This document shows, piece after piece, positions 16,970 through 45,029 of a DNA stretch of 64,000 nt. Positions within the stretch are counted from its first letter, which is position 1, and each line of letters begins with the position of its first letter. The notes under the pieces are model-generated. The model worked only from the letters and a program-made list of their open reading frames with translations, was not told the origin of the DNA and ran no database searches. Both the position numbers and the translations under genes were made by a program. The DNA comes from Limonium bicolor (Eukaryota; Streptophyta; Magnoliopsida; Caryophyllales; Plumbaginaceae), in the NCBI GenBank assembly GCA_023374045.1, contig CM041776.1, positions 117,509,000 through 117,572,999 of the forward strand, read 5' to 3'.

Positions 16970-16971
16970 TT

Positions 16972-16989
16972 TGGCGCCGTCTGTGGGAA
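16972..16989 (+). other. Tat primer binding site
   Basis: TGGCGCCGTCTGTGGGAA begins two bases after the LTR. This PBS type is usual in Tat-lineage elements and differs from the TGGCGCCGTTGCCGGGGA PBS of the Athila element at 61694. Confidence 0.85.
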
Positions 16990-17048
16990 ACGAACGATAA
17001 CCACGATTCAATCCACAAGAGTCACGGTTCTTGTCTTTTGTTCAAACA

Positions 17049-20432: not shown

Positions 20433-20467
20433 AGCAAATCGCCAATAACCCAAACGCCTCCGGAAGA

Positions 20468-21060: not shown

Positions 21061-21216
21061 CTAATTTGGGCGAATCATGGATGACTCCCATTGTCCGGTA
21101 TATCCAAGAGGGGACACTACCAGAGGACGAAAAAGAGGCCAAAACGATAAAAAGAAGGGCAGCGTCGTTTTTTCGAAAACGGCCAACTCTATAAGCGATC
21201 TTTCGGTAGACCATCA

Positions 21217-22294: not shown

Positions 22295-22516
22295 TATCTT
22301 CTTTCAACTGCAGGTTAAAGAGTCGCTTGGTAAAAAACGCGCAAAGAGTGGCAATAAAGCATTTTGCTTCATGATCTCAGTTATCTTGTTTTCAAAGCAT
22401 GTTATCCGCCGATGATAATATATAAAGTTTCCAGACAAAACAAAAAGCATCGCAATTTCTCTCCGTCACAAAACAAGAAACAAAGGGTTTTTTCAAAAAA
22501 GAAAGACAAAGAATGT

Positions 22517-22715
22517 ATCCGACGATCTCACCATTGGCCATGGTAGAGTGATTTGTATCCGACGATCTACCATCAACGATGGTAGTGTAATTCATTCGAC
22601 GATCTCACTGTCAGCGTCCTGGCAGTAGAGTGTTAATCCGACGATCTCACCGGCTCAAAGTCGGTAGAGTGTTAAATCGACGATCTCACCATGTGTACAG
22701 TGGTAGAGTGTGAAA
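22517..22715 (+). repeat. Array of five ~40-nt hairpins after integrase
   Basis: Copies begin with CGACGATCT at 22520, 22560, 22597, 22639 and 22678 (spacing 37-42 nt). Each has a small stem between GATCT and AG(A/T)GTG: ACCAT/ATGGT, ACCAT/ATGGT, ACTG/CAGT, ACCG/CGGT, ACCA/TGGT. The arms change together and the pairing is kept. It lies in the 3' untranslated part of the pol transcript, about 220 bp after the integrase stop. Confidence 0.9.
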
Positions 22716-22797
22716 GTGGAAAAGTGTAACTAAAAGGTTACTGAAACAAGAGACCCTCTACAAAAATGAAAGGCAACTTAAAAATTCTACATTAATG

Positions 22798-22860
22798 AAA
22801 GTCTCCAACTTTCGGGAGACCGGTCGCTCCGGTCATACCCGAAAGGTCTGGTTGGTATGA
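22798..22860. other. Compact inverted-repeat segment
   Basis: Several short pairs lie in 60 bp: GTCTCC/GGAGAC around AACTTTCG (22801-22820), and CCGGTC/GACCGG-type and CTTTCGGG/CCCGAAAG pairs around it. It is between the hairpin array and the end of the antisense gene, where the two transcripts would converge; a role in 3' end formation is possible but unproven. Confidence 0.4.
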
Positions 22861-22941
22861 TAAAAGGAAAAATTAATTACAAATATAGAATACTCCGCAG
22901 CAAATAGTTATAACAAAGCTTTAAAGCAAAAAGGAAAAAGT

Positions 22942-25900: not shown

Positions 25901-26059
25901 TGTCACGGTGAGGCTGGAGCCGGTTCCCTGGCGAGGGTAGTCCCCACAGATATCTTCAGAAGGAACGGCAGGATCTTCGACGACGCACTTTTCCCCGTCG
26001 GTGAAAAGTGTCGACCCCGCCGGTGCTGGGACAGAGGAGCTTGGGTTTGACAGAGCCAT
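22942..26059 (-). CDS. Spliced antisense gene of the Tat element
   Basis: Antisense ORFs between integrase and the 3' LTR are known in Tat elements; this one resembles the plant family annotated as 'putative gypsy type transposon'. ATG at 26059 (MALSNPSSSVPAP) leads to FNYFGDGFVVYREHLHRGLR and LNPNALGCLHAFLSVC, then SGWSSNWFVFYPPRG. Four canonical GT-AG introns can be placed at 25226-25298, 24731-24815, 24134-24197 and 23514-23590, with T-rich acceptors. The last two exons (24133-23591, 23513-22942) encode a long coiled coil and a Ser/Glu-rich tail. Two frame changes in exon 1 (near 25720 and 25630) disable it as assembled. Its function is unknown. Confidence 0.7.
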
Positions 26060-26316
26060 TACAAGCAAGAGAGGTTGACAGAATATGGACGATCGAGTAG
26101 AGGGGAAAAGTGCGAAGGGAAAAGGAGCGCAAAAACGAGTCGGGAAGTTAAAGGGCAGGGAAGACGAAGGAGGACGGTTGCTGTGTAGAGAAAACGCAAG
26201 AGGATAAAACACGAAGCAAGGAACGAGACAGGGAAGTTCAAAAGTTTGAGAGGATCAAAGCAGAGAAGTTCGAAAGTTTGAAAGAATAAGAAAAAGGGGA
26301 GAGGGAAGAGAATGAG

Positions 26317-26324
26317 TTTAAATA
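26317..26324 (-). promoter_or_regulatory. TATA box of the antisense gene
   Basis: The minus strand reads CTATTTAAACTC here, 258 bp upstream of the ATG at 26059. A TATA-type box at this distance would give a 5' leader of about 230 nt. The position is inside the element, so the antisense gene has a promoter separate from the LTRs. Confidence 0.45.
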
Positions 26325-26642
26325 GCGGAAATTGGGCGCGCTCTACCCAAAGTAATCATGGCCTACTCCTGCAAATGTGTCAGGAAAATAGTTACAGAAG
26401 ACGAGGAGGCGGCGGTTGCAGCGAGGCACGTTGCTAGGCCTCCGCAAAGTCTCAAACGGTAGGAAATCTACAAAAGCAAAAGCACAACTCCGAAGACCCC
26501 TTCCCTTTTTTCCGAAAAGAAAAGAGGTCTTGTGGGACTAGGGGGAACGGAGCGGAGCGGGCCACCAAAATTTAAAAACAAAGAAAGAGCAACAACGAAA
26601 AGATCTTTCCTTGCAGAACAAGAAAAGATCTTGTGGGACTGA

Positions 26643-27109
26643 TGAAGTGGAGTTCCACCGCACGGAGTAATCAAATGGCTGAGCAAAGAGTATATGCTGC
26701 CTACGGAGACAACAGATGGATCTCTCTGACCAAACCCCCTTCCGACTCCAACGAACGGACTCTTACGACAAGGAAGCTATACCACAGACAGACTGCGGAG
26801 GAGTAGTCGCCTCCAACGCAAAGCAAAGATCCTCTCCGAAGAGCTAAAAGTCATTCGCCTCTGAAGCAAAGCAAAATCCCCTCCGAAGGGTTGGGAGTAA
26901 TTATTCAAAAAGAAGGGTGAAGTTACACAAAAAGCCTTGTATAACTAAGAATACTCTAGAATAATGTAGGCCTACAGAAACGGTTATACACTGTAGAAGA
27001 GCCTATAAATAAGAACCATAAGTTATGTAACAAGGCACGCTTTTCATCAATACAATACTTGGAGATCTCTTTGCAATCTGAGTCTGAGTGCGAGTTCGAT
27101 ACGATCTCA
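26643..27109 (+). repeat. Tat 3' LTR
   Basis: 467 bp, same ends as the 5' LTR, TATA at 27004-27011. The stretch 26340-26642 before it holds no ORF; purine-rich GGGACTAGGGGGAACGGAGCGGAGCGGG-type sequence in it, or AGATCTTGTGGGACTGA just before 26643, may include the polypurine tract. Confidence 0.9.
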
Positions 27110-27939
27110 GTCTTATGTATGCTCTAAGAGATGAAGCTGAGGAGCATAAGACTATTTCTTGCTCACTTAGATTGGATCTGCAAGACTCTCGGCGTCATGT
27201 TGACTCCCTTAAAAAGGAACTCAACAACACCAAGAGTCTTACTGAATCCAACCAAAGGGAACAAGAGGAGTCACTCACTCAGATTGACTCTCTCAAAATG
27301 GATCTAACTATTTTCGCTAACAAGTGTTGTTCTTTGCAGAATGAGTTAAATAGTTCAGAATCTCAAGTTATGTCTCTAACCTCTTCTGTTGAGCAACTCT
27401 CTCGAAAATTGAAAGAAAAGGAACATGCACTCTCTCTCAAACCAGTCAATTTCATCAAACAGGTCACTCCATCAGAATTGCCCGAGTGGGCCAACTCCAA
27501 GATCAAGGAAGTTAGTCAAGATCGTGATAATCTTCGAAAGGAAGTTGAAAAACTCTCCCAGGAGATAGTCAATATACGATTTGGAGTTGGATCCACTCAA
27601 TCGAAGCCCAAGTGGCATAAAGGTAAATTCGATATCCCTAAAAATATGTCCAAATCCAACAACAAAACCCAAGCGCCAACAACAAAAGAAAATTTTGATT
27701 CTTGGTGGAAAGGACAGCAAAAATACGTCAATCTTCCTCCCACTAAGATTTGTGGTTATTGCGGGAGTCTTGGACTAGAGATAGTGCTGTGAAAAGCTTC
27801 ACAAGGATGTGTCATTTAGTATCAGCGGACTCAATCTTATCCTTGAGGCACGAGAAAAGCTGAAAAAATCTGGTCAAAAAGGGACCCAAGTATATTTGGG
27901 TTCCCAAACTACCAAGTGATTTTTTTGCAGGTGGAAGCG

Positions 27940-28282
27940 AGCGTGGAGATGACTATGTGTACTTGGACAGCGGGTGCTCCAGACTGGAAATCCCCACAAA
28001 TTCAGCTCGCTTTCAACCTACAAAGGAGGTAAGGTTACCTTTAGTAACAACAACCAAGGTGAAATCGTGGAAGTTGGCTCTGTAGGTAACCCCTCCAAGT
28101 TTAAGGTAGATGGAGTCCATCTGGTCACTGGACTTCAACCTAGTCTGTTAAGCATTTTTCAAATTTGTGAAAGATTCAATTTAGTACTTCTCTCATATGT
28201 CGTTTGCAAAGTTTTTGATGAACGTACAGGATCTCTAGAACCACGGGACGTAAAGAAGGAAATAAGTACAAGAAGTGTCTAA
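27940..28282 (+). pseudogene. SIRE aspartic protease remnant
   Basis: YLDSGCSR at about 27960 is the active-site motif, though the DSGCSRH context is broken by a frameshift right after it. The following frame reads YKGGKVTFSNN and VHLVTGLQPSLLSIFQIC, which match the usual copia protease order (GG.V.FG..., L..NLLSISQLC). The element jumps from here directly to the end of RT. Confidence 0.65.
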
Positions 28283-28315
28283 ATGCCACACATTATGACG
28301 TAAAAGTCTGTCTAT

Positions 28316-28795
28316 GTACTCGCTTTCAAGCAGCACCCAAACAGTCCCATCTCAAGGCGGTCAAGCGAATCTTTCGATACTTAAAAGGAACCAGTCAACT
28401 TCATCTATGGTACATTCGTTCCCCTATATTATTTTATCTGGCTTTAGTGATTCTGATTGGACAAATTCCCTCTATGATCGAAAGAGTGCATCTAGCAATG
28501 CACAATTCCTTGGCCCATGCTTAGTCTCTTGGCCCTCTACAAAGCAAAATTTTGCTGAGATCAAATTGGTATTTTTTGTGAAAACAATTGCACATGTTAA
28601 AATCTCTGGAAACCCAATCCAATATCGAGACCCAGACACATTGAAATATGTTTCCATTTGAAGGACTGTGTCGAGGAAAAGGCTAATTCAACTTGACTTT
28701 GTTCCAATAGAGGATCAGCTAGCAGAATCTTTGCCAAGCCTCTTCCTACCACCAGATTCGAGGCACTCCGTTCACAGCAATTGGAATGACTCAAT
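28316..28795 (+). pseudogene. SIRE RT end and RNase H remnant
   Basis: The text AVKRIFRYLKGTSQLHLWY marks the RT-RNase H connection of copia pol. DSDWT..DRKSAS and SWPSTKQN follow, then NPIQYRDPDTLKYV and FVPIEDQLAESLP, corresponding to the C-terminal RNase H motifs NP..H.RTKHI and DQLAD. Frames change several times. Integrase and the catalytic RT core are absent, so a deletion of several kilobases lies at about 28283-28315. Confidence 0.65.
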
Positions 28796-28799
28796 CAAC

Positions 28800-29753
28800 G
28801 TAAGACGGTAGTCTCTCTCCTTCTTTGGCTGTATAATTAGTAGGTGTGTTTGCGTACTGTTTGAGTCAATCCGTTTCTCATATTGATAGACTGTGTCTGG
28901 TCTTTGTGACCCTTTGTGATTTTCTCCTAAAAAAAAAAGGGGAGGGACAAAGGCAAGGACTCCGCTAACTTGTTTCTCCTGAACCAAAACGGACCTCGTC
29001 CACTCGGTTATTAAGCCTTTAAGGGTGCTTTATCACCTAACTTCCTAAGGATGTGAAACCTGGGAAAGTTGGCCCAAAGCTGTTACATGGGTGGAGAGAA
29101 AAGTGGGGGATGGAGACAGTCCCTGTGTGCTCAAACTTTAAATATCTATGCATGCAAATAGAGCTATAAAGTCTTCAAAAATACAATGCAATGCAACAGG
29201 GATCATTACAAGTTATGAGTATTGCAATGAAAGGTTTTGTGGAATATGACAATACTTCTTGCCCTTTGTCGTCCATGAGTATGTTTGCGTTATGGATACA
29301 GTCTATTGTTTTTAATGTACGGATTGACTAGACTCTGTTGCAAACTTCTCTTACTGATGACAGCAAAAAGGGGGAAGTAGTGAATCCCGTCTCTCACGAA
29401 CGAGTCACTCTGGCTATGTTCTGGATTGACTCTGTATCTAGTGACTAGGTCTTAGGTGAAGTTTGGATATTCTTTCGTTTTTACTCTGTTGGTACTAGAT
29501 CATGTTGGTTGCAGTTTTCTTAACTTAGTCATATATTCCCCTATTCAATCTCTCTTAGTAAGCCAAATTGTGCTCATCGATTCAGGGGGAACTCTAACAG
29601 AGTTACTCAATCTATGTTGTGATTAAGGGGGAACTTGGACAGGGTCGGTTCCCCAAAATTCTTTTTTTTTCTCTTGTCTTGTTTTGCAGATTGACTCATT
29701 CGGGATTCACAAAAGAGTTTTGCTATCATCAGCAACAAGGGGGAAACTGGGTA
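28800..29753 (+). other. SIRE post-pol region with polypurine tracts
   Basis: No ORF of note. An A9GGGGAGGGA run lies at about 28929-28946, and AGGGGGAAACTGGG directly precedes the 3' LTR at 29740-29751 and is the likely polypurine tract. I see no env-like reading frame. Confidence 0.5.
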
Positions 29754-30981
29754 TGAAGGTGTTACTGAGATAGTCAACCAGATCAAACAGTCAATCACAC
29801 TTCTCAAAACAAGACAGAGTCTGTCAACCTTGAAAGATCGAAGAGTCTCTATCTTACCGAAAGAGCGAGAGAGTCCATCCATGTGAATTCATCAATCAGT
29901 AACGAAATTCACAGGAGCAACGTCCACTAAACAATAACAGTCATCAATCTATCATCCTTGGGCCGAAATTCAAGCAAAATGTGAGCAAAATCCAAAGCCT
30001 TGACTTTCTGGTAATTCGAGGAGTCTGTCGGTCAGTTGCGAAAATTAAGGAGCAAGTACAACAACTACATTGACTTACAACGGTCATCAACGTTCAGACT
30101 TGGACCAAAATTCTCTCAACATGGCACTAATCAGAAGACTTGGCTTTAGCTTCCGAAATATGGCTCCAGCTTCCGAAATTCAAGGAAAGAGTCATTGGTT
30201 CCTGAAATTTCGGAACTGACAGAGTCAGTCTATACATCAGACGTGAAGTCCATAATGAACTTGCCAAGTCGTCCAAATGGATTGGTAATTGTCCGAAAAT
30301 TAAGGGCCCAAAGGCCTTAGCAACGTTCATAAAGAAGTTAGGACCGAATTTTAAGCACTACAACGTTCAGATGGCAGAAATTTCGGAAGAGACTCCCTCA
30401 CCGGCTCCCACTATAAGAGAGTTGTCATTCCGTTTCTCATTGCAGCTTTCCAAAGAGAATCATTCAGAGCATTTGTTTAGAGAAAGCTTTGCCTATTTTA
30501 GAGAGAGAAAAAGAGAGAGAGAGAAGTACTAGATTCGTTTGTGCATATCGATAGAGTCTTTCAAGGTAGGACATAGTTTTCACTACACTTATCATTGAGC
30601 TGATCAGAGATTGTATTGGGTGAGTGAGTGAAAACCACGAAGTAGATCTCATCTACTGAGTGGGCATTATAAGTTGTTTTGTTTTGACCAGGAAATAAAA
30701 TAACTTATATTGTGTATCCTGCTGAGTTCGATAGAGTCCTCCACCTTTCGAGTGTTAATCCATTTAGCTCCGCTAAGTCTATCTTACTTTACTACCTTGA
30801 GCAACTGCTTCCGCGCACTTAGTTCGACTAAGTGTTTCTACGTCTCAAGTGTTCTCACATACGAAGTTCGATTGAGTGCCTCTACATCACAGAGTGTTTC
30901 TTACTTTCAAAGACCGATTGAGTCAAACCAACTCTTAGACTCACACCTTGGGCTGGTTTGAGTCAGCCACCCGATCCTACA
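29754..30981 (+). repeat. SIRE 3' LTR
   Basis: 1228 bp, same ends as the 5' copy. By eye it differs at scattered positions, mostly one-base insertions or deletions. The next element starts only 3 bp after its end. Confidence 0.9.
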
Positions 30982-30984
30982 ACC

Positions 30985-32006
30985 TGCAACACCCCTAATC
31001 CTAAACCTGTAATAATGTCACAAGTCATAGCATAACAAAATATAATTCGCAGCGGAAAATAAAACTATCTAACGTTGGTGTTACACACCGTTGCCCACCC
31101 ACGTGAGTAACAAGGCAACCTTACTCCATCCATCAACTTCAACTCCTCACCGCTGTGATGAACAAGATACTGAGCATACTTAAACTTACAAACCAAATCC
31201 AAACTGAGCAACTAAACCAAATACAACATCCTCCAAAATACAGTACATAAATAAACTTAAAAGTGTTTATTGAAACACATCAGCTACCCTGTATCCCGCA
31301 CTCCGGCTTGTATCTTCAATCAGTAACCTGAAATGTTTTGCCCATTGAAGGGCTTAGCAAACGATATGCTGATATGCTAAATGTAGTCCTAAATCATTTG
31401 GATTCCTTAAGTCGTTTTAGCCATCTTGATATTAGGTTCATTACATGCTATACCGGTTTACAACAATAATAATAATGATAATAATAATAACTGTAAATGT
31501 TGAATAAACACACAACAGTTCACAACAATATCATCACACCATCGATAACCAATAATCAATATCAGTAACCAAACAAGATACGCGTATTAATTAACTGTAC
31601 TTGTTAGTTGGCCACATGGCCCTTATCCTTTAAACCAATCACTTAACCTTCCAATTAATTTCCACCTCAGGCATCATGTTAGGACAACCCTTAATAACTT
31701 ATTAATGGACAGTAGTCCCCTGGGTTCCAAAGGAACCGTTGCCAGCTGACCTTATGGCCCTGGATAATTTATATGCCTGAAAGGCGACCGATCCGGTCAT
31801 AACCTGTGCACCAACAGTAGTGCCCTCTGCCATCGTCGAATGTGGCAATGGATTCCCTTGAGTGACTCTTGATACAGTCCCTCATAGTGATCACGATGAG
31901 CAACCAGAAAGTCGAAACAGTCTGGATTCCTCTCTTTATAAGTTAGCTCTTTAGTCAGTGATACAATATCCAATCCTTGAGTTAAGACTATAACAGTTGA
32001 CCATCA
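30985..32006 (-). repeat. 3' LTR (truncated) of the AlkB-Tekay element
   Basis: It aligns with 37572-38577 with few differences, including a longer AATAATAATGATAAT run near 31470. The hairpin GTTGCCCAC/GTGAGTAAC is at 31090-31111. The end toward integrase is a deletion joint with about 7 bp of shared sequence (TTAGGTT) rather than a true LTR start. Confidence 0.85.
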
Positions 32007-33301
32007 ATTAGGTTGCCCTTCTTCCCAAATCTGAAAACTCCCTTCATTGGTGAAACTCTGAGGAAGACTCGATCGCCTACTGCGAACTCGAGGTCTCTCC
32101 TTCGGACATCAGCATATGACTTCTGTCTGTCCTGGGCTATCTTCATGTTCTTGCGTATTTGCACAATATCCACTTTCATCTGGTCTAGGTACTCTGGCCC
32201 TAAGATGATATTCTCACTGGCCTCGTCCCAACAAAGAGGTGTCCTGCATGGCCTGCCGTACAATGCCTGGAATGGTGGCATCTGAATGGATGCATGATAA
32301 CTATTGTTGTACACAAACTCGATCAGATGTAGTCAATCTATCCAGCTTTCCTGGAAGTCTAAGGGACAAGCTCTAATCATGTCCTCTAATGTTTGGATTG
32401 TTCGTTCACTCTGACCATCTGTCTGTGGGTGAAAGGCGGTACTTAGCTTCAGCTTCATACCCAATGCCTCCTGAACTTGCTGCCAAAATCTACAAACAAA
32501 TCTAGAATCTCTATCTGACACAATCGACTTAGGTACACCGTGGTGTCTAATGATCTCTCTCTGGAAGAGGTCCGCCAGCTTGGGGACTTTCGAGGTGTCC
32601 TTGATAGTAATTAACTTTGCTACCTTCGTCAGTCTGTCGACGATGACCCATATCATGTTAGCACCTCCTCTAGTCGGTGGAAGACCGACTACGAAATCCA
32701 TGGATATATCCTTGAACTTCCAATAAGGAATGGGCATCGGCTGTACTAAACCGCCCGGTCTCCGGTGCTCGAACTTCACCTTCTGACACGTCATACATCT
32801 TGCCACAAACTTTGCAACATCTTTCTTCATACCACTCCACCAGAAATGTAATTTCAGATCCTTATACATTTTGGATGATCCTGGATGTAGTGATAAGGAA
32901 GAGCAATGAGCTTCCTGTAGTATCTTTTCCTTTAAGTCGGGGTTGGACTCTGGTATGCACAAACGACCATTTAGTCTGATTAACCCGTCTTCACTGAGTA
33001 CAAAGTCATACTTCTGCCTCTCAAAGATACCGTCAGTCAACTGCTGTCTGATAGTCTTCATGTATTGGTCGTTATCTTGAGCACAACGTACCTCCTCGAT
33101 GTGGCCGTTGTCTCCTGTCATGGCAAATAAGGAATGAGCTCTACGGCTCAGGGCGTCAGCAACAACATTTGCCTTGCCGTCCTTGTACCTGAGGTCAATG
33201 TCGTAGTCCTTCGGAAATTCGACCCATCGCCTCTGTCTCGTGTTAAGCTCCTTCTGAGTGAATAAATGCGGAACACTCTTATGGTCTGAGTAGACTATCA
33301 C
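31988..33301 (-). CDS. Tekay RNase H end and integrase, C-terminus lost
   Basis: [14 protein letters not shown] and RQRRWVEF belong to the RNase H/connection. Integrase follows with an HHCC region ([10 protein letters not shown], then CMTC), the [12 protein letters not shown] and IVSDRDSRF segments giving the two Asp residues, and [12 protein letters not shown] with the Glu. A TGA at 32333-32335 interrupts the frame but reading continues in the same frame to [22 protein letters not shown]. There the sequence passes into the LTR; the GPY motif and chromodomain expected in Tekay are absent. This copy could not integrate without help. Confidence 0.9.
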
Positions 33302-33325
33302 TGTAACTCCGTATAAGTAGTGGCG

Positions 33326-33853
33326 TCAGATCTTCAGTGCAAACACAACTGCTCCCAATTCTAAATCATGAGTCGGGTAGTTCTCTTCATGTTTCTTTAG
33401 CTGTCGTGATTCATAAGCAACAACCTTTCCATTCTGCATAAGTACACACCCTATCCCTGTGCCTGAGGCATCGCAATACACTTCAAATCTGTCGGTCCCC
33501 TCTGGAATGGTGAGTGTGGGTGCCGACGTCAGTAGGTCCTTCAGTGTCTGAAAGGATCGCTTGCAATCCTCGGTCCATACAAATGGAGAGTCTTTCTTCA
33601 TCACGCTAGTCATTGGTTTCGCCAGTTTGGAGAAGTCTTGAACAAATCTACGATAGTAACCAGCTAATCCAAAGAAACTACGGATATTTGTCACTGTCTT
33701 CGGTCTTGGCCAAGTCTTAACTGCCTCAATATTCGCAGGGTCTACAGATATACCGATGGCTGATATTACATGCCCTAGAAAAGATACACTGTCTAGCCAG
33801 AAATCACACTTTGAAAGCTTGGCATACAATTGGTTCTCTCTCATGGTCTGCAA
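33326..33853 (-). CDS. Tekay RT C-terminal part and RNase H
   Basis: It reads [18 protein letters not shown] and [16 protein letters not shown] (RT thumb), then [19 protein letters not shown] (RNase H first Asp) and [18 protein letters not shown]. It is in another frame than the upstream RT, with a small deletion at about 33855-33862 after VYSKT. It ends at TGA 33326-33328, which replaces the usual Trp codon of ALKIW, and the same frame continues into the next segment. Confidence 0.9.
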
Positions 33854-33861
33854 AACTTGCC

Positions 33862-35021
33862 TCAGTCCTTAGTCTTAGAATAAACTAGAATGTCGTCGAT
33901 GAACACAACCACTGATGAGTCTAACTGCTCTCTGAACAATCGGTAAATAAGATCCATGAATATAGCTGGGGCGTTCGATATGCCAAATGGCATCACTGTG
34001 AATTCGTAGTGCCCATAGCGCGTTCGAAAAGCTGTCTTCCCTATATCCCCATCTGCTATACGTATCTGGTGGTATCCTGATCTCAGATAAATCTTCGAGA
34101 AAACTATGGCACCTCTTAATTGGTCAAACAGATCGTCAATCCGTGATAACGGGTACTTGTTCTTTATTGTGACTGCGTTAAGCTCCTTGTAGTCAATGTA
34201 TAGTCGCATGCTATAGTCCTTCTTCTTTACAAACAAAACTGGTGCTCCCCATGGTGATGCACTCGGTCTGATGAAACCTTTGTCAAGTAGATCATCTAAC
34301 TAAATCTTTAGTTCTTTCATCTCCGCTGGTGCCATCCTGTAGGGTGCTTTAGCAATAGGCCCCGTGCCTGGTATTAAGTTGATGGAGAACTCAACATCCC
34401 TCTTGGGTGGCATCCCTGGTAAATCTTCAGGAAATAAATTAGAAAAGTCTGAAACAACTAGTTTGTCTGACCGTGTCTGCTCATCCTGCCTCATGTCCTG
34501 GACATAGCATAAATAGACTAGCTGTCCCTTCTTCATCTTCTTCATCAAAGCTATAACAGATACTATCTTGAAAGTCGGTTCTCTTGGAGTACTGCGATAT
34601 GAAACGGTCTTGCCCTTCGGGCTCTTCAGTAGCAATCTATGCTCTGCGCAATGTAGTCGTCCCTTGTACTTTTGAAGCCAATCCATGCCCATGATGATGT
34701 CAAAACCCAAGTTATCCAACTCAATCAAGTCCGCGTGAAAATCTTCATTCATGATATTAATCTTAACTCCCTTGTGGAGTTTCGTGCACCTCACTCTCTC
34801 CTTCGTCGGTAGTGTGACTAAAAAATCTGAGAGAGGCTCAGGGGTTGTCTCTAACTTCCTTACTAATGTAGAGGATATAAAGGAATGAGACGCTCCTGAA
34901 TCGAACAGTATCGATACACTCACGCCATTTACTATGAAGGTTCCCATGATGACATTCCCCTTATCCTTAGCCTCGGTCTTGTCCAACACATTCAGTACTG
35001 CTCCTCCATTAGACTTGTGGC
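33862..35021 (-). CDS. Tekay protease and reverse transcriptase core
   Basis: From the predicted splice acceptor at 35022 the frame reads [13 protein letters not shown], then [15 protein letters not shown], the aspartic protease active site (about 34890-34930), and [14 protein letters not shown] begins near 34400 with [16 protein letters not shown]; a TAG at 34300-34302 replaces what is probably a Gln codon. RT motifs [49 protein letters not shown] and the catalytic FIDDILVYS follow. The ORF ends at 33862 by a frame change. Confidence 0.9.
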
Positions 35022-35127
35022 CTGGGGTTAACAATTCGTAAGATAGTGAGGTTGGGGTGTATGTCTCAAGGAATTAAAATGCCATTCATTAATCCAATGA
35101 TTCTTACATTCAAGCCTTATAATTACA

Positions 35128-35866
35128 TCAATATTTCCTAAACGACAAATTTAACCGTCCGGGTTTTAAATGGGTAGTGTTTACTAAGGTTGATGGGGTT
35201 GTATTCAACTTAGTGCTCTTAATCCCATGGTATACTAATATGGATTCTCCACCAAATATCAATACATTTCCTGACTTCAAGATAATCTTGCTCGCCTTGT
35301 CCATCCTCTTCTGATCACCGTATAGAAACTCAGCATCATCTCCAATGGAGAATGATACAACTGGTATCCCTTTGGTAATTGACTCAGATGTCTCATCTCG
35401 GTCTTGGTGTAATCCAATTTTTCCCTTTTCTCATAGAAGTTCGCAATACATACGTCGGCTTTCATGTCTGGAATGGGGTTGGTTTCTAGCTGCTGTGCAA
35501 TCTTGACTGCTTCTGTCACCAAGGTTTGAAAAACATTGGGTATCCTAGGAACTAGTGCTCCATTTACCTTTCTTACTTCCTGATATAACCTAGTTTGTGG
35601 ATCCCAATCCTTACCCATACACATCATATACAATTTAAGTTTTGATCCACTCCCATATCCTGGAGTGTAAAATCCTCCTAGACCTATCCCCAAAGTTCTA
35701 CATTCATTTACAATAGCTATTTGTTCATCTAGGGTTAAGTATTGCTTGAGTAGGATCATGCCGGGTCGAAGTACTTGGCATTCTTCCTCTGGATATTCCC
35801 GACCTTTGCTCATAGGCTCAGGTGATCTCGGTCTCATAGGTAAGGGGTAACCAATGTCCAAGTGTC
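35128..35866 (-). CDS. AlkB/ALKBH1-type 2OG-Fe(II) dioxygenase exon in a retrotransposon
   Basis: The translation follows plant ALKBH1-type proteins from the N-terminal block LRPGMILLKQYLTLDEQ, through GGFYTPGYGSGSKLKL, MMCMGKDWDPQTRLY and DVCIANFYE, to the C-terminus. The catalytic set is present in the DNA: HQD (HxD iron ligands) at 35401-35409, the distal His of YHG at 35227-35229, and RLNLSFR (2-oxoglutarate-binding Arg) at 35137-35157. A one-base loss at about 35410-35416, just before HQD, splits the frame; otherwise it is open from the acceptor at 35867 to TGA 35128-35130. AlkB enzymes remove methyl groups from nucleic-acid bases. The exon has no introns of its own, unlike a nuclear gene, so it looks like a captured cDNA. 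The substrate here is unknown. Confidence 0.88.
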
Positions 35867-35998
35867 CTATTCAGGTGAGAGGTTTCCTAAGTTCGGTCTC
35901 TCTAGATTTTATTCGCACTTACCACATACAAGTTTCATCGCTGATAACTGTAAACACACAATCATGCTTCATGCTTTTGGTTTTGGTCTTAGGCTTAC
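35867..35998 (-). other. Putative short intron joining gag to AlkB
   Basis: It uses the same donor at 35998 with acceptor CACCTGAATAG|G at 35867; 132 nt. The joint is in frame with AlkB (HLDIGYPLP). A TGA stands just upstream of the AlkB frame inside the intron, so AlkB needs this splice, or an internal start, to be made. Confidence 0.6.
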
Positions 35999-37353
35999 CG
36001 GTTTCGCGCTGAGCGCTAGCCTCAGCGCCAGAAGTTCCCACTGAGTACAGGGTGTTTCTGTCTGGAACAATCTCTTTTCCGTTCTGACTCACGAATGAGG
36101 ATGGGTGTCCGGCCGGTCCTCTAGTGTAGGTGTTGTTCTGCGGCGCCTGACCTCCTCTTGGTCCGCCCGCCTTAGTAGCTGGGGTCCTCTATGAATCCCT
36201 AGATCCCTTATACACTCGGCTTGCTGGGTTGGAAAAGCATTCATACTCTCGGTGGCCTTCCTTTTTGCAATAGCGGCACTCCACCTTCCTACCTGAACAA
36301 TCTACGCCTGGGTGATCATTTCCACAGCGCTTATAGTAGTAGTGGCGCTGGGGTGGCTTATTGCCTATTGTTTATACAACATGGTTTAGTAAAGGCACAA
36401 CTAATAAATATTTGGTTAAGTGAGAGGTGGGTATCCTTACCCTTAGGTGGTGCCGATCTAAGTGGCTGAGCATTTATAGCTGGGCCTGTCATACGAGGGA
36501 CCTGCTCCTTCGTCTTCTGACTCTGGAAGTCCTTCCGCCCCTTCTTCTTATCAAAGAATTTCCTGCTAAGGTTTTAGGATTAATGACCAATTTCAAGTAT
36601 AGGTAATAAATGGGCAACTCATTCTCAATCAAAGGTTCCTTACTTTCCCTTCTTGTAGTAACCGCCAGAGGTTGCTCCCCTATCTTCTCCTTCAGAATTC
36701 TTCCTCTTCTTTCCTTGGGCCTCTTCCCTGGACTGAAGCATTAACTCGGTTGCTGATGCGGCGTCATAGCATTCTTGTATAGTAGTAAAACGTATTGCTC
36801 CCATGGCGCCCTGGATACGATATTGCAAACCTCCTACAAACTTTTGAATCTTCACGGTGTCGGAGTAGTCGACCCCTGAGATGTAGTCTAGTAGACTGAT
36901 GAATCATGTGTAGTACTGATCAACCGTCTGACTCTCCTGGATCAGGGTCTCGAATTCTTGCCTCTTCCTCTGCTTCAGGTGTTCGGGGTAGTACTTCTCC
37001 CGCAACACTTCCACAAATGCTGTCCAAGCAAAGTTTGGTGTAGCTCTGTGGTGGCCCTCGATAGACCGCCACCAAATGTTTGCTGCGTCCTTCAAGTTAT
37101 ACGCTGCTATGTCGACCTTCTGGTCTTCTGGAACTCCAACAGCCTTGAATGCCTTCTGGTGTTCCACAACGCTATTCAACCAGTTGGTTTCTCTGGGCTG
37201 CGGCGGGTGGGGTATGGCTCCTGCAAATTGAGCTCCTAGTTGTTGGGCGAAGGCTGCCATGTCCTCTGCTAGGCCTGGTATCTCTGGGACATCTGCTGGT
37301 GTCTCGTTACCGCGTCCACTGCTGCCTCCACGTGGTCTTCCAGCTCTTGACAT
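35999..37353 (-). CDS. Tekay gag with two small introns and zinc knuckles
   Basis: ATG 37353 starts MSRAGRPRGGSSGRG. The gag core has FKAVGVPEDQKVDIAAYNL and AANIWWRSIEGHH, then LREKYYPEHLKQRKRQEF. A TGA at 36904-36906 interrupts the same frame (YYT-stop-FISLLDY). The exon ends at 36644; exons 36441-36562 and 35999-36364 follow after introns of 81 and 76 nt, each restoring frame. The last exon holds the knuckles YKRCGNDHPGVDC (first Cys replaced by Tyr) and CRYCKKEGHREYEC, then a TAG at 36189-36191. All joints are phase-compatible. Gag is the RNA-binding particle protein. Confidence 0.85.
36365..36440 (-). other. Putative gag intron 2 (76 nt)
   Basis: Donor CTAAGG|GTAAGGATA, acceptor AAACAATAG|G. 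AT-rich with in-frame stops when retained. It directly precedes the zinc-knuckle exon, exactly as intron 9872-9949 does in the other Tekay element. Confidence 0.7.
36563..36643 (-). other. Putative gag intron 1 (81 nt)
   Basis: Donor GGGAAA|GTAAGGAACC, acceptor AAACCTTAGCAG|G. Unspliced, the frame stops at once (GK-stop); spliced, the lysine-rich gag tail continues (KKFFDKKKGRKDF). AT content is clearly higher than in the flanking exons. Confidence 0.7.
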
Positions 37354-37571: not shown

Positions 37572-38577
37572 TGTAACACCCCTAATCCTAAACCTGTAAT
37601 AATGTCGCAAGTCGTAGCATAACAAAATATAATGCGCAGCGGAAAATAAAACTATCTAACGTTGGTGTTACACGCCGTTGCCCATCCATGTGAGTAACAA
37701 GGCAACCTTACTCCATCCATCAACTTCAACTCCTCACCGCTGTGATGAACAAAATACTGAGCATACTTAAACTTACAAACCAAATCCAAACTGAGCAACT
37801 AAACCAAATACAACATCCTCCAAAATACAGTACATAAATAAACTTAAAAGTGTATTGAAACACATCAGCTACCCTGTATCCCGCACTCCGGCTTGTATCT
37901 TCAATCAGTAACCTGAAATGTTTTGCCCATTGAAGGGCTCAGCAAACGATATGCTGGTATGCTAAATGTAGTCCTAAATCATTTGGATTCCTTAAGTCGT
38001 TTTAGCCATCTTGATATTAGTTTCATTACATGCTATACCGGTTTACAACAATAATAATAACTGTAAATGTTAAATAAACACACAACAGTTCACAACAACA
38101 TCATCACACCATCGATAACCAATAATCAATATCAGTAACCAAACAAGATACGCGTATTAATTAATTGTACTTGTTAGTTGGCCACATGGCCCTTATCCTT
38201 TAAACCAATCACTTAACCTTCCAATTAGTTTCCACCTCAGGCGTCATGTTAGGACAACCCTTAATAACTTATTAATGGACAATAGTCCCCTAGGTTCCAA
38301 AGGAACCATTGGCAGCTGACCTTATGGCCCTGGATAATTTATATGCCTGAAAGGCGACCGATCCGGTCATAACCTGTGCACCAACAGCAGTGCCCTCTCC
38401 CATCGTTGAATGTGGACAATGGATTCCCTTGAGTGACTCTTGATACAGTCCCTCGTAGTGATCACGATGCACAACCAGAAAGTCGGAACAGTCTGGATTC
38501 CTCTTGTTATAAGTTAGCTCTTTAGTCAGTGATACAATATCCAATCCTTGAGTTAAGACTATAACAGTTGACCATCA
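37572..38577 (-). repeat. 5' LTR (3' portion) of the AlkB-Tekay element
   Basis: Begins TGTAACACCCC on the plus strand. The hairpin GTTGCCCAT/GTGAGTAAC is at 37677-37698. 38577 is where similarity to the truncated 3' LTR stops, not a demonstrated LTR start; the LTR probably reaches further right. Confidence 0.85.
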
Positions 38578-39371
38578 GTTAGGTTCACATAATACCTAAA
38601 GGTCACTTAGTTTTGTTTGAGTTTAGATGTATAAACTTCCAGTCATAAGACGTTCGCGTAAAAATAAAACACAGTGGTGTTGTGATAACCCGTAAATATC
38701 GTGTAACTCCTACCGATATAACAATTGTCCTTGTCATCCTAATCATATATAATATTTACTTTTGATCCAGATGTATGGTCATATGCCGGTAACATCCAGC
38801 AAGTGAGGAAATGTACCGGTACATCAACGAGGTATAATTTCTCTTGTTTAATGTGATCAGTGCTGATCAATAAGATAGCGAAATGATAAAATATTTTGAC
38901 ATACTCCAGCATGCTATTAAAAAATGGGTGATCATCATACTGATTTCACCATGTGAAGGAATATGAGAACGGCAACTTGAAAACGTATAATTATTGGACC
39001 TATACATCTGGGACGCTGCAGGTGCTTACCCATCAATACATGCTAATTAAATACTTGATTAAGGGACGGTTAGCATGCTTAGGAGATTGCTGTTCGGTCA
39101 CCGCTAGAGACTTCTAACTCAGATAAATATATATATATATATGATAGCATGTTTTTAGCACCGGAAGGATTCATCACGAAAACAGTATTACAAATACAGA
39201 GAGTATCCAAGTTTTCCCAAATCCATGCGAAGTTATTAAGCGCAGGTTATGACGGTGGAAGACTGCACTTAGGTTTGGGTTTGAGCAGAGCAAGTTCTTG
39301 TTGGTTAGCGATATCAGGTAAGTAATAGATCAGTAGTTCTCTTCAACTACATAAATGTGGTCCCCGTGTAT
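38578..39371. other. Unassigned, probably remaining Tekay LTR
   Basis: About 38586-38610 (TCACATAATACCTAAAGG) resembles the matching place in the LTR at 48832 (TCACGCATACCTAGAAG). Further right the similarity fades. The copia element inserted at 39372 within this sequence. No ORF or RNA gene is seen. Confidence 0.4.
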
Positions 39372-39652
39372 TGTTAGAGGAGTTGTTATTTTGTACCGTT
39401 GCTGGGTTATGTCTTTGTACATGTTTGGGTCTTATGTCAGTAGACCGTTGGGCTTTACCGTTGCTGGGCTTCGGTTCTTGTTATATTAAGGGTTTAGTCT
39501 AGCTTTGTGTAGTAGTTGAATGTACTGTAGATAGCTCGTGTTTCTCTGTTTTCTTCCTCTGTACAACCCTTCCACGATGGGTAAGGGTTTGAGTCTGTAC
39601 ATTCTTCTTGGTCTTGAGCCTCTTGAATACGAGAGTTTGGTCAATTCTTTCA
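39372..39652 (+). repeat. copia 5' LTR
   Basis: Starts TGTTAGAGGAGTTG and ends CAATTCTTTCA. Contains the repeated phrase TACCGTTGCTGGG. The probable TATA element is TTATATTAAGG near 39480. Confidence 0.97.
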
Positions 39653-39937
39653 TGGTATCAGAGCAACGATCATGGGATCATGCTCCTAGTTCCGCTTCCA
39701 GTCTCCGCTCCTTCTCCGTTCCCTTTTTTTTTTCATCGCCGCCTTCAACCTTGGTTCGCAGGAACCCTAAATTTTCGATGTTCGCTTCCATCCCTATTTT
39801 CTTCTAGCTTTTACCGTCGTTGCGAAAGAACCCCTTCTTTTCTCCTGTTACTATCCCATTCGAATCTTCCCACAAATTTGTTTTCCCCAAACCGTACCTA
39901 ACCCTAATACTTTCGATTCCCCCCATTTTCTTGATCC

Positions 39938-41040
39938 ATGGCTGATAAGGGAATCACAGATGAAAATCTGAAGAATGGGGACAAGGGAAAAGAGATTCTC
40001 GATGTTGAGACCGAAACTAGTGGGAGTTCTTCGATTGAAGTTGGTTCGCAGCTGTACCTGTCAAGCTCTGAGAGTCCAGGCCACTCCCTTGCAACCAAAT
40101 ATGATGGCAGACCCGGTTTTTCGAAATGGAGACATCAAGTGGAGATCGCCTTGGGCTCCAAAAACAAATTATGCTTCGTCGACGGATCTTTGCCAAAACC
40201 CACTGATAACGATGCGCGTGCGGAGGCCTGGCGACGGTGCGACAGCATGGTTCGCAGTTGGATCTTGATGAGCCTTGAAAAACGTATCTCAGACTCCGTT
40301 TTGTTCCTCCCATCCGCTGCTAAAATCTGGGAAGACCTACGGACTCGCTACGACCAAGTTGATGCAACTCGCCTGTATGAATTGGAGAGAAGACAAGTAA
40401 ACACGGTACAGGGCGGTGACAGTATCGGGGAGTACTTCACAAAACTTAGAGGTTTGTGGGATGAATTCGACACTGCGGCTTACCCACCTGTGGTTGCATT
40501 ACTGAGGGAGCCCTAAAGAATTTTATCCAAAGTCAGAGGCTTATAAGATTTCTGATGGGATTGAATGACAAGTATAATGCTGCTCGAGAAAGTATTCTCA
40601 TGATCAACCCACTTCCCACCATGGAACAAGCGTTCTCCATCTTGATACAACAAGAGAGGCAGAAAAACATCTCAACTGTGGCTGTTACAGATACTGATGC
40701 TCCGGTGGCCTTTTCTGCTACACAAGGGAGGAAAACTTTCTTCCGCGGTCAAAACAACAATAATGGCAGCAGGCGCACAGCACCCCAGTGCACATATTAC
40801 CACAAGATTGGGCACACAGAAGAAAGATGTTACCAAAAGAACGGATTTCCAAGCGGTTGGCGAGCTCCAAAGGAGAGAAAACCTCAAGCTAACAGCACCA
40901 CTGACCAGAAGGCAGATAGCCCAAAGGATCCCTTCAACGGAAATCTGACAGCAGAACAAGTAACTCAATTGTTGGAGTACATCAGTAGGTCACAGCCCAG
41001 CAACAAGGAAACAAAGAACGGCTCCGAATCCAATTGTGGA
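39938..41040 (+). CDS. copia gag (frameshifted)
   Basis: ATG 39938 starts MADKGITDENLK. The gag core shows WRHQVEIALGSKNKLCFVDG and MVRSWILMSLEKRISDSVLF, then ARLYELERRQVNTVQGG-like and FTKLRGLWDEFD. A one-base change near 40480 ends the first frame at 40516; the second frame resumes with a CGC-containing segment and FLMGLNDKYNAARE. The zinc knuckle near 40790 reads CTYYHKIGHTEERC, with the second Cys replaced by Tyr. Confidence 0.85.
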
Positions 41041-42141
41041 TTCGTTGGTAAGCGTCTCTCACATAGTTCTGTCTGTTGGACTCTCAGTATTTACAAACTA
41101 TTTAATGCCTCTGACCATGGCTGTTATCATGATAATGACTGGATAATTGATAGTGGCGCATCCGACCACATGTGTGGCAATCTTTCCTTGTTTAATGAGT
41201 TTTCTTTTCTTGATAAGCCCCACAGCGTTGGAATGCCTGACGGACATCCACAAACTGTTAGAATTATGGGAAATGTTAGAATAAATAACCTTATAATACT
41301 TAAAAACGTTTTGTATGTCCCTAGTTTTAAGTTTGGACTGATCTCTGTTAGTAAACTGTCTGCTGATTTAAGTGCTAAGTTGAGTTTTGATTCAACCTCT
41401 TGTGATTATCAGGATTATGAGAACAAGCAACAAGTGAAGATTGGTCAAGTCATTGGGGGGCTTTATGTTCTAGACAGTCAATGTGACAAGGAAGTTAGGA
41501 AATCTGTTAGCTTTCAGGTTGATAAAGAGGTCACCCATAGGTTAGTAAACAATAATGATAGTTCTGTTGATCTGTGGCATAATAGACTTGGGCATATCCC
41601 AAGAGAGAAATTAGTCACATTGGGTTTAATTGAAGCAAAACTTCTGCATAAAAACTTTCTCTGTGAACCTTGTAATAGAGCCAAGAGTCACAGATTGGCT
41701 TTTCCTTCTAGTTCAATAAAGAGCAAAGATTTGTTTGAATTGATTCATGTCGACCTCTGGGGGCCTTATAACCTGAAAACTCATGATGGCTTTTCTTATT
41801 TCTTGACTATTGTGGAAGATAAAAGTCGTGTTACTTGGACGCATCTTTGTGATCTCAAGTCTGATTCTTTTGCTTTGCTTGTCAGTTTTATCAGCATGGT
41901 TGAAACACAATTTGATAAAAAGGTTAGATGTGTTAGGACCGACAATGCATATGAGCTGGGATGTAGTAAATTAGGAACAGAATACTTCAAGATCAAAGGA
42001 ATTAGGCATCAGACAACCTGCCCACATACCCCTCAACAGAATGGGGTCACAGAGCGAAAACACAGACATATTTTAGATACAGCTAGGGCTCTTATGTTCA
42101 TTCATCTCTCCCCAAGAAGTTTTGGGGAGAAAGCATTCTGA
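41041..42141 (+). CDS. copia protease and integrase
   Basis: Protease active site WIIDSGASDHMCG at about 41140. Integrase zinc region LWHNRLGHIPREKL with CEPC, core segments IHVDLWGPYN (first Asp), CVRTDNAYE (second Asp) and HTPQQNGVTERKHR (Glu). The frame breaks at 42141 after FGEKAF. This part is in one frame with the second half of gag, as expected for a copia polyprotein. Confidence 0.9.
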   Translation, partial: FVGKRLSHSSVCWTLSIYKLFNASDHGCYHDNDWIIDSGASDHMCGNLSLFNEFSFLDKPHSVGMPDGHPQTVRIMGNVRINNLIILKNVLYVPSFKFGLISVSKLSADLSAKLSFDSTSCDYQDYENKQQVKIGQVIGGLYVLDSQCDKEVRKSVSFQVDKEVTHRLVNNNDSSVDLWHNRLGHIPREKLVTLGLIEAKLLHKNFLCEPCNRAKSHRLAFPSSSIKSKDLFELIHVDLWGPYNLKTHDGFSYFLTIVEDKSRVTWTHLCDLKSDSFALLVSFISMVETQFDKKVRCVRTDNAYELGCSKLGTEYFKIKGIRHQTTCPHTPQQNGVTERKHRHILDTARALMFIHLSPRSFGEKAF

Positions 42142-42164
42142 CAGCAACTTACCTCATCAATAGG

Positions 42165-43139
42165 ATGCCCCTGTCTAGCATAGAGAACAAAACCCCTTTT
42201 GAGATTATTTACAATACAAAGGCTGATTACTCAACTTTAAGGACTTTTGGATGTTTATGTTTTGCGAATATTAATAAGAATCAGCATGACAAGTTTCTGT
42301 CAAGATCTTTGAAGTGTGTTTTTCTTGGATATGGGCACAACAAAAAGGGCTACAAACTTTATGACATGGATAATGGGAAAATAATCTGGAATAGGGATGT
42401 TGTTTTTCATGAACAGATATTCCCTTTTAAGGCTAATTTAAACAGTTCAATAGAATGTGGTCCTGATGATACTCACAAGGAAACAGAATCCCTTGAGGAT
42501 GTTTTTTTCCCTACTATTGATGCTAATGAAACAATTGAGGAAAGACAGAAACACGTCAGAACACATCATAACAGACAAGCCACTGAAGAAGAAGATGATG
42601 GAGAAGAAACAAGGACCCAAGCATTTGGAGAAGAACAACCAAGAGAAGAAGCTGTCTTACAAGAAACAGAAGGGGAGCCGACCATTGTGGGAGGCACAGA
42701 AGATGGAGGGAATGGCCTGAGGAGATCTGAAAGAACCAGAAGCAAACCCACTTATCTGAAGGACTATGTTGTTGGATCATCAAGCTCTAAAAAAGATAAG
42801 TCTTCAGTTTATCCTCCCTCTGATTCTCTAAGTACTTACCCAGACTATTTCTCAAAGATTCTGAGTGACAGAGTTGCTTTTGCTAATCTTGCTGATCATA
42901 CTGATTATTATTGTGATTCTGATTCTGTTAGCACACGTGAGATTAATAGCATTATTGATAGTGGAAAGATGTCACAGACCTTAGGTCTCCTCCTTGTTGA
43001 TCACCACTGCTGTTTAGTCAACTCTGGCAATAATACAGAACCTGATAGCTATGAGGAAGCCTCTAGGGATGAGAGATGGCAAAAGGCCATGAATGATGAG
43101 TTTCTGGCCTTAGAAACAACACACTTGGGATTTGGTTGA
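42165..43139 (+). CDS. copia integrase C-terminus and RT start
   Basis: The frame starts with MPLSSIENKTPFEI and LRTFGCLCFANI, the GKGY-type integrase tail (KCVFLGYGHNKKGYKLYD). A long acidic, low-complexity linker follows, then DERWQKAMNDEFLALE, the start of RT. A frame change at about 43125 separates this from the next RT segment. Confidence 0.9.
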   Translation: MPLSSIENKTPFEIIYNTKADYSTLRTFGCLCFANINKNQHDKFLSRSLKCVFLGYGHNKKGYKLYDMDNGKIIWNRDVVFHEQIFPFKANLNSSIECGPDDTHKETESLEDVFFPTIDANETIEERQKHVRTHHNRQATEEEDDGEETRTQAFGEEQPREEAVLQETEGEPTIVGGTEDGGNGLRRSERTRSKPTYLKDYVVGSSSSKKDKSSVYPPSDSLSTYPDYFSKILSDRVAFANLADHTDYYCDSDSVSTREINSIIDSGKMSQTLGLLLVDHHCCLVNSGNNTEPDSYEEASRDERWQKAMNDEFLALETTHLGFG

Positions 43140-43850
43140 ACCACCACATGGAGAAAACCAGTGAAGTGCAGATGGGTATATAAAGTTAAGTATAGGGCTG
43201 ATGGCAGTGTAGAGAGATTTAAAGCTAGGCTAGTAGCTAAGGGCTTCACTCAAGGTATGGGGTGGATTATTTAGAAACTTTTTCACCGGTAGTCAAGTTT
43301 ACAACTATTAAGGCCTTAATCATTATTGCTGTCAAGAAAAATTGGACAATAAGCCAGCTAGATATTAACAATGCCTTCCTCCATGGGGATTTGGAGGAAG
43401 ATGTTTATATGCAGATCCGCAAGGTCATAAACAGGAAACTTCTGGTAAGATTTGTAAGTTAAGAAAATCCCTCTATGGTCTTAAGCAAGCGTCTAGACAG
43501 TGGCATAAGCTAAGTGTGTTTCTCAAGTCTTTGGGTTTTACTCAGTCTCTTAATGATTATTCCTTATTCATCAGTTTAAAGAATAACAAGGTCTGTTTCC
43601 TTGTTGTATATGTGGATGATATTTTGATAACTGGCAATGATTTGGCTCTGATAAGTTCTGTTAAGAGAGGTCTGGACAGGCAGTTTAGAATTAAGGATTT
43701 GGGTAGTCTGAACTTTTTCTTAGGTATGCAGTTCTTGCATACTACCGAAGGAATAATCTTGACCCAAAGGAAATATTGTGAAGATCTTCTAAAGGAATTT
43801 GATTGTCTGAATTGCAAAAGTGTGTTGCCCTCTTGATTTAGTGTGAAACT
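43140..43850 (+). CDS. copia reverse transcriptase (fragmented)
   Basis: [26 protein letters not shown] is readable at 43160-43245, then [15 protein letters not shown] (43262 on), [20 protein letters not shown], the catalytic [11 protein letters not shown] at about 43600, and [12 protein letters not shown]. At least three frame changes (near 43250, 43420-43450 and 43836) interrupt it. Confidence 0.85.
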
Positions 43851-44547
43851 GTTGCGTAATGAAGGAAAACCATTGGGTGATCCTACCATGTATAGGAGAC
43901 TTGTGGGGAAAATAAGTTACTTGGCTCATAGTCGTCCTGATCTTAGTTTTACCATTCAAGTGTTAAGTCAGTTCTCAGTTTTCCTACTGAAATACATTAT
44001 AAAGCTGCTGTTCACACCTTGAGTTACATCAAGGGCACTCTGAATTATGGTTGTTTTTCAATAACAGAAAGGACTTTACACTAACTGCTTTTTGGACTCG
44101 GATTGGGCAGGTTGTCCAAACACCAGAAGGTCAATCAGTGGGTATTTTATTCAATTGGAGGATGCCCCTTATCTTGGAAGTGTAAGAAGCAAACCACCGT
44201 GGCTTTATCATCTGCAGGCGGAGTATCGAGCCATGAGAAACGTTACTGCGGAACTTAGCTGGGTCACACGGCTGTTACATGAGCTGGGGGTGCAGGACAT
44301 TCTCCTGTTCCACTTAAGTCTGATAGCCAGGCTGGTATTTATAGCCAGGAACCCAGTACTGCACGAACGCACCAAGCACATAGAGCTTGATGTACACTTT
44401 GTGAGGCAGAAGTTGCAGGAAGGCTTGATGGTAGTAGAGTTTGTGACATCTGAGAACCAGTTGGCTGACGTCTTGACCAAGCTTCTGCCTGGTCGAGCTT
44501 ATCCTCTTCAGATGAGAAGGCTGGGCCTGAAGTTAGATGTGGATTAG
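43851..44547 (+). CDS. copia RNase H (fragmented)
   Basis: RRLVGKISYLAHSRPDLSF at about 43890 ends RT. DSDWAGCPNTRRSISGYF (44092) gives the first Asp, AEYRAM the Glu, and ARNPVLHERTKHIELDVHFVR and ENQLADVLTKLLP the C-terminal motifs. The stop at 44547 lies 64 bp before the polypurine tract. A small deletion or frameshift separates the part before 44090. Confidence 0.85.
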
Positions 44548-44622
44548 TGTTTGGTTGAAGCCAGCTGCGGTTCTGTTCTTCAAATCTCAGAAGACTGACG
44601 CCTCCTAAGATTTGAGGGGGGG

Positions 44623-44903
44623 TGTTAGAGGAGTTGTTATTTTGTACCGTTGCTGGGTTATGTCTTTGTACATGTTTGGGTCTTATGTCAGTAGACCGTT
44701 GGGCTTTACCGTTGCTGGGCTTCGGTTCTTGTTATATTAAGGGTTTAGTCTAGCTTTGTGTAGTAGTTGAATGTACTGTAGATAGCTCGTGTTTCTCTGT
44801 TTTCTTCCTCTGTACAACCCTTCCACGTTGGGTAAGGGTTTGAGTCTGTACATTCTTCTTGGTCTTGAGCCTCTTGAATACGAGAGTTTGGTCAATTCTT
44901 TCA
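44623..44903 (+). repeat. copia 3' LTR
   Basis: Identical to the 5' LTR except T at 44828. It follows the polypurine tract TTTGAGGGGGGG directly and is followed by the TSD TGTAT. Confidence 0.97.
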
Positions 44904-45029
44904 TGTATATCACAAACTTTCGACCCACGCATCATTCTTTTTTTTCTAAACGTTGGTTATTTCCATGTAATCGGTATATATGTGTTGAAACTAAAATGAT
45001 CATATAACAATATGTTATTAATTAAGGCA

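Follow-up and report, generated by a model that had tools for sequence, protein, structure and literature searches.

An ALKBH1D-type AlkB domain as a putative alternative exon in the gag-pol intron of a chromovirus-like Ty3/gypsy lineage of Limonium bicolor

Introduction

AlkB-type dioxygenases are known from long terminal repeat (LTR) retrotransposons of orchids: in the cited portions of the report, Ogre/Tat-like Gypsy elements of Phalaenopsis carry a paALKBH5-like second open reading frame (ORF2), the enzyme that it encodes is active on N6-methyladenosine (m6A) in vitro, and the element went undetected in the other plants of a 121-genome screen (PMC9289625). A search of the open-access literature (subscription papers and preprints lay outside its scope) found only this report of AlkB in an LTR retrotransposon, and none that describes the capture of an ALKBH1-type enzyme, a chromovirus with an AlkB domain, or an alternative exon downstream of gag that encodes an accessory enzyme. 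Splicing is familiar from related systems: according to the cited sections of PMC3735527, it occurs between the ORFs of Ogre and serves for Gag in BARE and copia. Here we describe a Ty3/gypsy element with an AlkB domain in a 64,000-nucleotide stretch of the Limonium bicolor genome (GCA_023374045.1, contig CM041776.1, positions 117,509,000 to 117,572,999; hereafter the window).

Our principal proposal, which we consider probable, is that a chromovirus-like Ty3/gypsy lineage keeps a captured ALKBH1D-type AlkB as an alternative exon, and that a Gag-AlkB protein made from it demethylates the RNA or cDNA of the element in particles.

An ALKBH1D-type enzyme

A preliminary description, made from the sequence alone, had recognised an ALKBH1-type AlkB domain at 35128..35866, with HQD, YHG and RLNLSFR in that order. 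The motifs are present as described, and both frames of the region pass the cut-off of the AlkB profile PF13532: 35128-35430(-), E 2.7e-23, covers profile positions 106-194, and 35277-35870(-), E 3.1e-11, covers positions 1-110. The closest solved structure in searches is 5xeg, identified in the cited part of PMC8118384 as rice ALKBH1. Structure prediction agrees with the ALKBH1 type: an AlphaFold model of the AlkB domain of copy L061 (predicted local distance difference test score, pLDDT, 86) matches 5xoi and 5xeg with E 2-3e-28, 53% identity and a template modelling (TM) score of 0.91-0.93 depending on the target, and matches to E. coli AlkB (2e-16), human ALKBH1 (3e-10) and ALKBH5 (6e-8) are weaker. 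Plant proteins stand at 44-54% identity to the element AlkB, many of them named ALKBH1D or DNA N(6)-methyladenine demethylase. By these comparisons the element AlkB appears to be of the ALKBH1D type, closer to plant ALKBH1/1D than to ALKBH5.

In a tree of 53 rows, eight AlkBs from the elements fall into one clade with four unnamed database proteins, P0001-P0004 (support 100/100), and the other 41 rows (36 of them named plants) stand apart from it, again at 100/100. A single clade fits one uptake; the tree is midpoint-rooted and the stem leading to the element clade is long, so that it gives no date for this event. P0001 and P0122, a pol protein with 74% identity across 85% of the query, both come from contigs of length 26,561, and we infer that the two share one contig. 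No PF13532 domain occurred in the same protein as pol among the best 120 of 7,978 pol relatives, and no annotated gag-AlkB or AlkB-RT fusion (RT, reverse transcriptase) among the best 120 of 488 matches in plant proteomes. The AlkB frame is intron-less, which would fit the uptake of a processed mRNA; the genome search did not find a host ALKBH1D gene, its best place having 52% identity over 54 residues. Among annotated proteins, two from Smallanthus sonchifolius (P0241, P0242) apparently contain at least two AlkB units in series, one of them together with an RNA recognition motif (PF00076).

Copies and families in the genome

The genome searched comprises 2.92 Gb, and the contigs fetched include eight of 136-540 Mb. 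With PF13532, all 150 places scored (out of 38,325 first-look candidates) exceeded the cut-off across the full profile, and in 28 of the 30 loci fetched from among them the RT of the element lies downstream of AlkB in the same orientation. The AlkB DNA of these fetched loci is only 64-73% identical to that of the window, defining two further families, B (26 loci) and C (4 loci), besides the window's own family A. A search with the window AlkB frame scored 150 of 46,251 candidates, which may overlap the PF13532 set; a pattern for the family A gag donor (at most one mismatch) occurs at 1,865 places, and the backward pattern at 0. At the protein level, AlkB of family A is 56-60% identical to that of B or C, and B is 68-70% identical to C.

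All three families retain the element order and the catalytic residues. A lone pseudogene is ruled out by the many copies with the same order, and the finding of further copies that share the gag-AlkB-protease junctions refutes the chance insertion of a pseudogene, the outcome against which the preliminary description had set its own proposal. AlkB fused in frame to Pol was likewise rejected as a general state: the stretch with the AlkB stop is absent only from L065 among 15 aligned rows. In that copy a single open frame of 644 aa (L065:3980-5911) runs through AlkB and protease into the beginning of RT. Farther downstream the locus holds another gag, distinct from the first (L065:7237-8579), with parts repeated at 65-70% identity. 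Elsewhere, a tandem array of elements (G000:C1:497439466-497470353) holds four equal-scoring AlkB copies in the same orientation, spaced by ~10 kb.

Splicing and the AlkB exon

Alignment of copy L062 shows that two stretches of gag are missing precisely at GT..AG borders. The exactness of the loss identifies these stretches as introns, and L062 as derived from spliced RNA. Intron 1, intron 2 and the entire AlkB-containing stretch are likewise seen by alignment to be missing from copies L066-L070. In a midpoint-rooted tree that leaves out the family B and C rows, L066-L069 group together (100/99) and L070 stands apart, both among intron-bearing A copies: these two separate positions, together with the homologous introns in family B, fit a later loss of introns.

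The gag donor is in phase 1, as are the AlkB and protease acceptors of families A, B and C. The GT of the gag donor is kept in 32/33 A, 26/26 B and 4/4 C copies, the AG of the AlkB acceptor in 30/33, 26/26 and 4/4, and that of the protease acceptor in 30/33, 25/26 and 4/4. Splice dinucleotides are thus kept in 91-100% of copies, against a mean background of 0.82 (A) and 0.89 (B). If one phase-1 donor serves two phase-1 acceptors, then two exact junctions are predicted for each family. Genome pattern searches found the gag-protease junction of family A at five places, four of them exact (with three reverse hits in the control), that of family B at 12 places with 1-3 mismatches, and that of family C at two places, with one and two mismatches. 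The gag-AlkB junction was found at 12 places in family B (three exact) and at 11 in family C (four exact). Apart from the family A gag-protease search, the backward-pattern controls gave 0. Family C gag-AlkB spliced copies at C1:98426690-98448759 lie ~11 kb apart.

The exon layout, and the reverse copying of both kinds of spliced RNA into the genome, are shown in the DNA itself. AlkB accordingly reads as an alternative exon inside the gag-pol intron: the order gag, AlkB, protease given in the preliminary description holds, and the simple insertion between gag and protease that it envisaged does not. Its end coordinate, 35866, coincides with the first base of the putative exon.

Several observations weigh against this reading. 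The evidence comes from genomic DNA. Conservation of the sites in family B barely exceeds the background, and 30% of intron dinucleotides are fully conserved. None of the 12 family B gag-protease places is exact (seven carry three mismatches), for families B and C the places were identified solely by pattern, and the gag-AlkB junction was found at 0 places in family A, the window's own. Some junction places, at intervals of ~10 kb, may have arisen by tandem duplication, and the places are therefore not independent events. Lastly, the spliced lineage without AlkB (L066-L069) has multiplied, and AlkB is therefore not required in cis for every round.

Unspliced RNA might instead serve for the translation of AlkB, with initiation at a start codon of its own and the AlkB acceptor seldom used. 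A Met precedes the catalytic core in families A and B, which together with the lack of gag-AlkB copies in A would suit such a mode; the gag-AlkB junctions of B and C would not, nor would B copy L029, which is without the first Met. In family C none of the four copies has a Met ahead of residues 81-93 of the AlkB frame, so that the full enzyme could be made there only through fusion to upstream sequence. We regard translation from an own start as improbable.

Selection on AlkB

Among 28 frames, the residues of the HxD..H iron and R..R 2-oxoglutarate (2OG) sites are H in 27, D in 28, H in 28 and R in 27; the last R is kept in 27/28, one frame having been ended early in the analysis. The first H of HxD is H in 30/33 family A copies.

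The ratio of nonsynonymous to synonymous substitution (dN/dS) of AlkB is 0.17-0.18 within families (A, 0.17, 3 pairs; B, 0.18, 210 pairs; C, 0.17, 6 pairs), for copies that were the best-scoring ones, a choice that biases dN downward and also counts against our proposal. Between B and C the ratio is 0.12 (83/84 pairs usable), and comparisons of A with B and with C are saturated. Across the 26 family B copies the ratio is 0.16 for AlkB in its own frame, 1.28 and 1.36 for the two wrong frames, 0.34 for the short tail that precedes the core, and 0.25 for protease-RT. For 30 A copies with a broken frame, that of the window among them, it is 0.26 before the break and 0.15 beyond it. These ratios support purifying selection on AlkB.

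A functionless processed pseudogene, spread by the element as passive cargo, would account for the broken window copy and for the multiplication of copies without AlkB. It would not account for ratios so far below those of the wrong frames, or for the retention of catalytic residues and splice phase across three old families, and we consider it very improbable indeed.

A proposed role for Gag-AlkB

In the scheme that we favour, an alternative AlkB exon whose product acts on the element itself, an ALKBH1D-type gene was taken up by the chromovirus-like lineage, probably once. RNA left unspliced at the gag donor would yield Gag alone, ending at a stop within the intron; joining of the donor to the AlkB exon would yield Gag-AlkB, ending at the AlkB stop; and joining to protease would skip AlkB and yield Gag-Pol. 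Since both junction types occur in the genome, all three proteins can be made. The Gag part would then bring AlkB into virus-like particles, as with Pol, where the Fe(II)/2-oxoglutarate enzyme may strip base methylation from element RNA or new cDNA. Human ALKBH1 acts on 1-methyladenosine (m1A) of tRNA, and the primer tRNA could perhaps be a target too. Candidate substrates in single-stranded DNA are N6-methyladenine (6mA) or methyl adducts of the repair type or, in RNA, m6A; the benefit would be better copying, or escape from methylation-based control. Rice ALKBH1, in the cited part of PMC10469495, is active on 6mA of single-stranded DNA and of R-loops. Both forms arise in reverse transcription; the alternative would be demethylation of m6A in RNA, of the kind that the orchid enzyme performs in vitro.

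The proposal of the preliminary description, that the element may use AlkB to remove methyl marks, is a fair reading. A more specific version – a third gag product, Gag-AlkB, packed in particles, erasing methyl groups from genome RNA, cDNA or primer tRNA, and acquired in an event separate from the orchid ALKBH5-like one – is offered tentatively, as possible rather than probable. It is also conceivable that AlkB is retained and made as proposed and that Gag-AlkB acts on host mRNA, R-loops or element-silencing chromatin rather than on RNA or cDNA of the element. The R-loop activity of rice ALKBH1 is accompanied by effects on histone marks in the cited part of PMC10469495, and the orchid paper, in the portion cited, considers host RNA as a possible target (PMC9289625); the fusion to Gag suggests delivery to particles, and we think a host target unlikely.

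The frame break before HQD

The preliminary description had attributed the disabled frame of the window copy to one missing base before HQD. Its location was right, but the break is not a one-off of the window copy: 23/33 family A copies examined, the window included, change frame at the same codon, in a search whose query was itself frame-shifted and so favours broken copies. The 48-copy set used for a tree comprises 30 broken and 18 open copies, 15 of the latter picked for being open. Broken copies are scattered on this tree (13 changes, at least seven of them forced by supported branches; shuffled labels lead one to expect 14.8). An inherited frame-broken subfamily is ruled out by this scatter: the breaks either arose many times, by recurrent slippage at the purine run, or represent a systematic homopolymer error, two causes indistinguishable here.

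The window element and its surroundings

The minus-strand element is bounded by an LTR pair (30985-32014 / 37572-38585) of 95% identity and a Kimura two-parameter (K80) distance of 0.030; assumed substitution rates give the insertion an age of about 1-2 million years. Between the LTRs the order on the (-) strand is gag, AlkB, protease, RT, RNase H, integrase, and Pfam matches in the frames flanking AlkB on the same strand (gag PF03732, protease PF08284, RT, RNase H, integrase) confirm the Ty3/gypsy host reported earlier. The copy is decayed: frames are broken in gag, AlkB and pol, and the integrase end and part of the 3' LTR are gone. A chromodomain (PF00385), absent from it, is found in the related copy L064 (25.6 bits, cut-off 25.1) and falls just under the cut-off in L063 (24.7). 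The order protease-RT-RNase H-integrase and the chromodomain of related copies support assignment to the Ty3/gypsy chromoviruses; the Tekay lineage named in the preliminary description is a candidate placement.

Features of the AlkB-bearing element, in window coordinates
Feature	Position	Strand	Basis
5' LTR	37572..38680	(-)	pairs with 30985-32014 over 37572-38585; homology to L061, L062 and L065 extends to 38680-38682
gag exon 1	36644..37353	(-)	PF03732 in 36904-37353; border set by spliced copies L062, L066-L070
gag intron 1, GT..AG	36563..36643	(-)	absent from L062 and L066-L070; sites read in window
gag exon 2	36441..36562	(-)	borders from spliced copies and sites read in window
gag intron 2, GT..AG	36365..36440	(-)	absent from L062 and L066-L070; homologous intron in family B
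gag exon 3, zinc knuckle, phase-1 donor at end	35999..36364	(-)	gag exons total 1198 bases, remainder 1
gag-AlkB intron	35867..35998	(-)	GT..AG read in window; spliced junction found in B and C, not in A
AlkB exon, own stop codon, frame broken in window copy	35128..35866	(-)	PF13532; stop read directly
gag-protease intron, containing AlkB exon	35022..35998	(-)	entire stretch absent from L066-L070
pol (protease, RT, RNase H, integrase)	32015..35021	(-)	reading frames disrupted; no integrase end or chromodomain
3' LTR	30985..32014	(-)	start removed by deletion

The window as a whole is a nest of LTR retrotransposons. A Ty1/copia-like element (39372-44905, + strand) adjoins the AlkB element; its 283-nt terminal repeats are 100% identical, and its insertion is therefore probably very recent. 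Two further retroelement blocks, at 15233-30981 and 52733-63658, are flanked by repeats 98-100% identical and contain frames for gag, protease, RT or integrase. An Rfam scan of the window gave 0 matches.

Comparison with known systems

Host ALKBH1 proteins are standalone, and the AlkBs of the elements branch as a separate clade; the best structure match is rice ALKBH1 (5xeg/5xoi), and the best named sequence relatives are plant ALKBH1D proteins. Some plant RNA viruses are likewise genetic parasites that bear AlkB, in their case in the replicase, a comparison made by description only; a scan of IMG/VR viral contigs with the element AlkB confirmed no relative.

As in Ogre, BARE and copia, splicing in or after gag decides which proteins arise; the cited sections of PMC3735527 describe no accessory enzyme exon in those elements, whereas the Limonium elements have two putative alternative acceptors, one for an enzyme. 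The removal of the gag-pol intron (gag-protease copies in A, B and C) is Ogre-like in mode, and no membership in Ogre/Tat is claimed. A cassette exon in the gag-pol intron would offer a route to adding an accessory enzyme while leaving Gag-Pol undisturbed, and one locus would make RNAs with and without the eraser, at copy numbers sufficient for RNA and methylation assays.

The orchid elements are the nearest parallel: they too are plant Ty3/gypsy elements with a conserved host-derived AlkB/2OG dioxygenase whose cofactor residues are intact (PMC9289625, portion cited). There the enzyme belongs to the ALKBH5/9B/10B clade and occupies a separate ORF2 in a 25 kb element of the Tat lineage with dual RNase H; the Limonium elements have an ALKBH1D-clade enzyme on a putative gag-fused alternative exon, with a chromodomain in related copies, and so do not group with the orchid AlkB-Gypsy family. 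If two unrelated plant retrotransposon lineages each acquired an AlkB domain, from different ALKBH clades, then base methylation is probably a widespread arena of conflict between elements and their hosts. The two cases differ in enzyme clade, in element lineage and in mode of expression.
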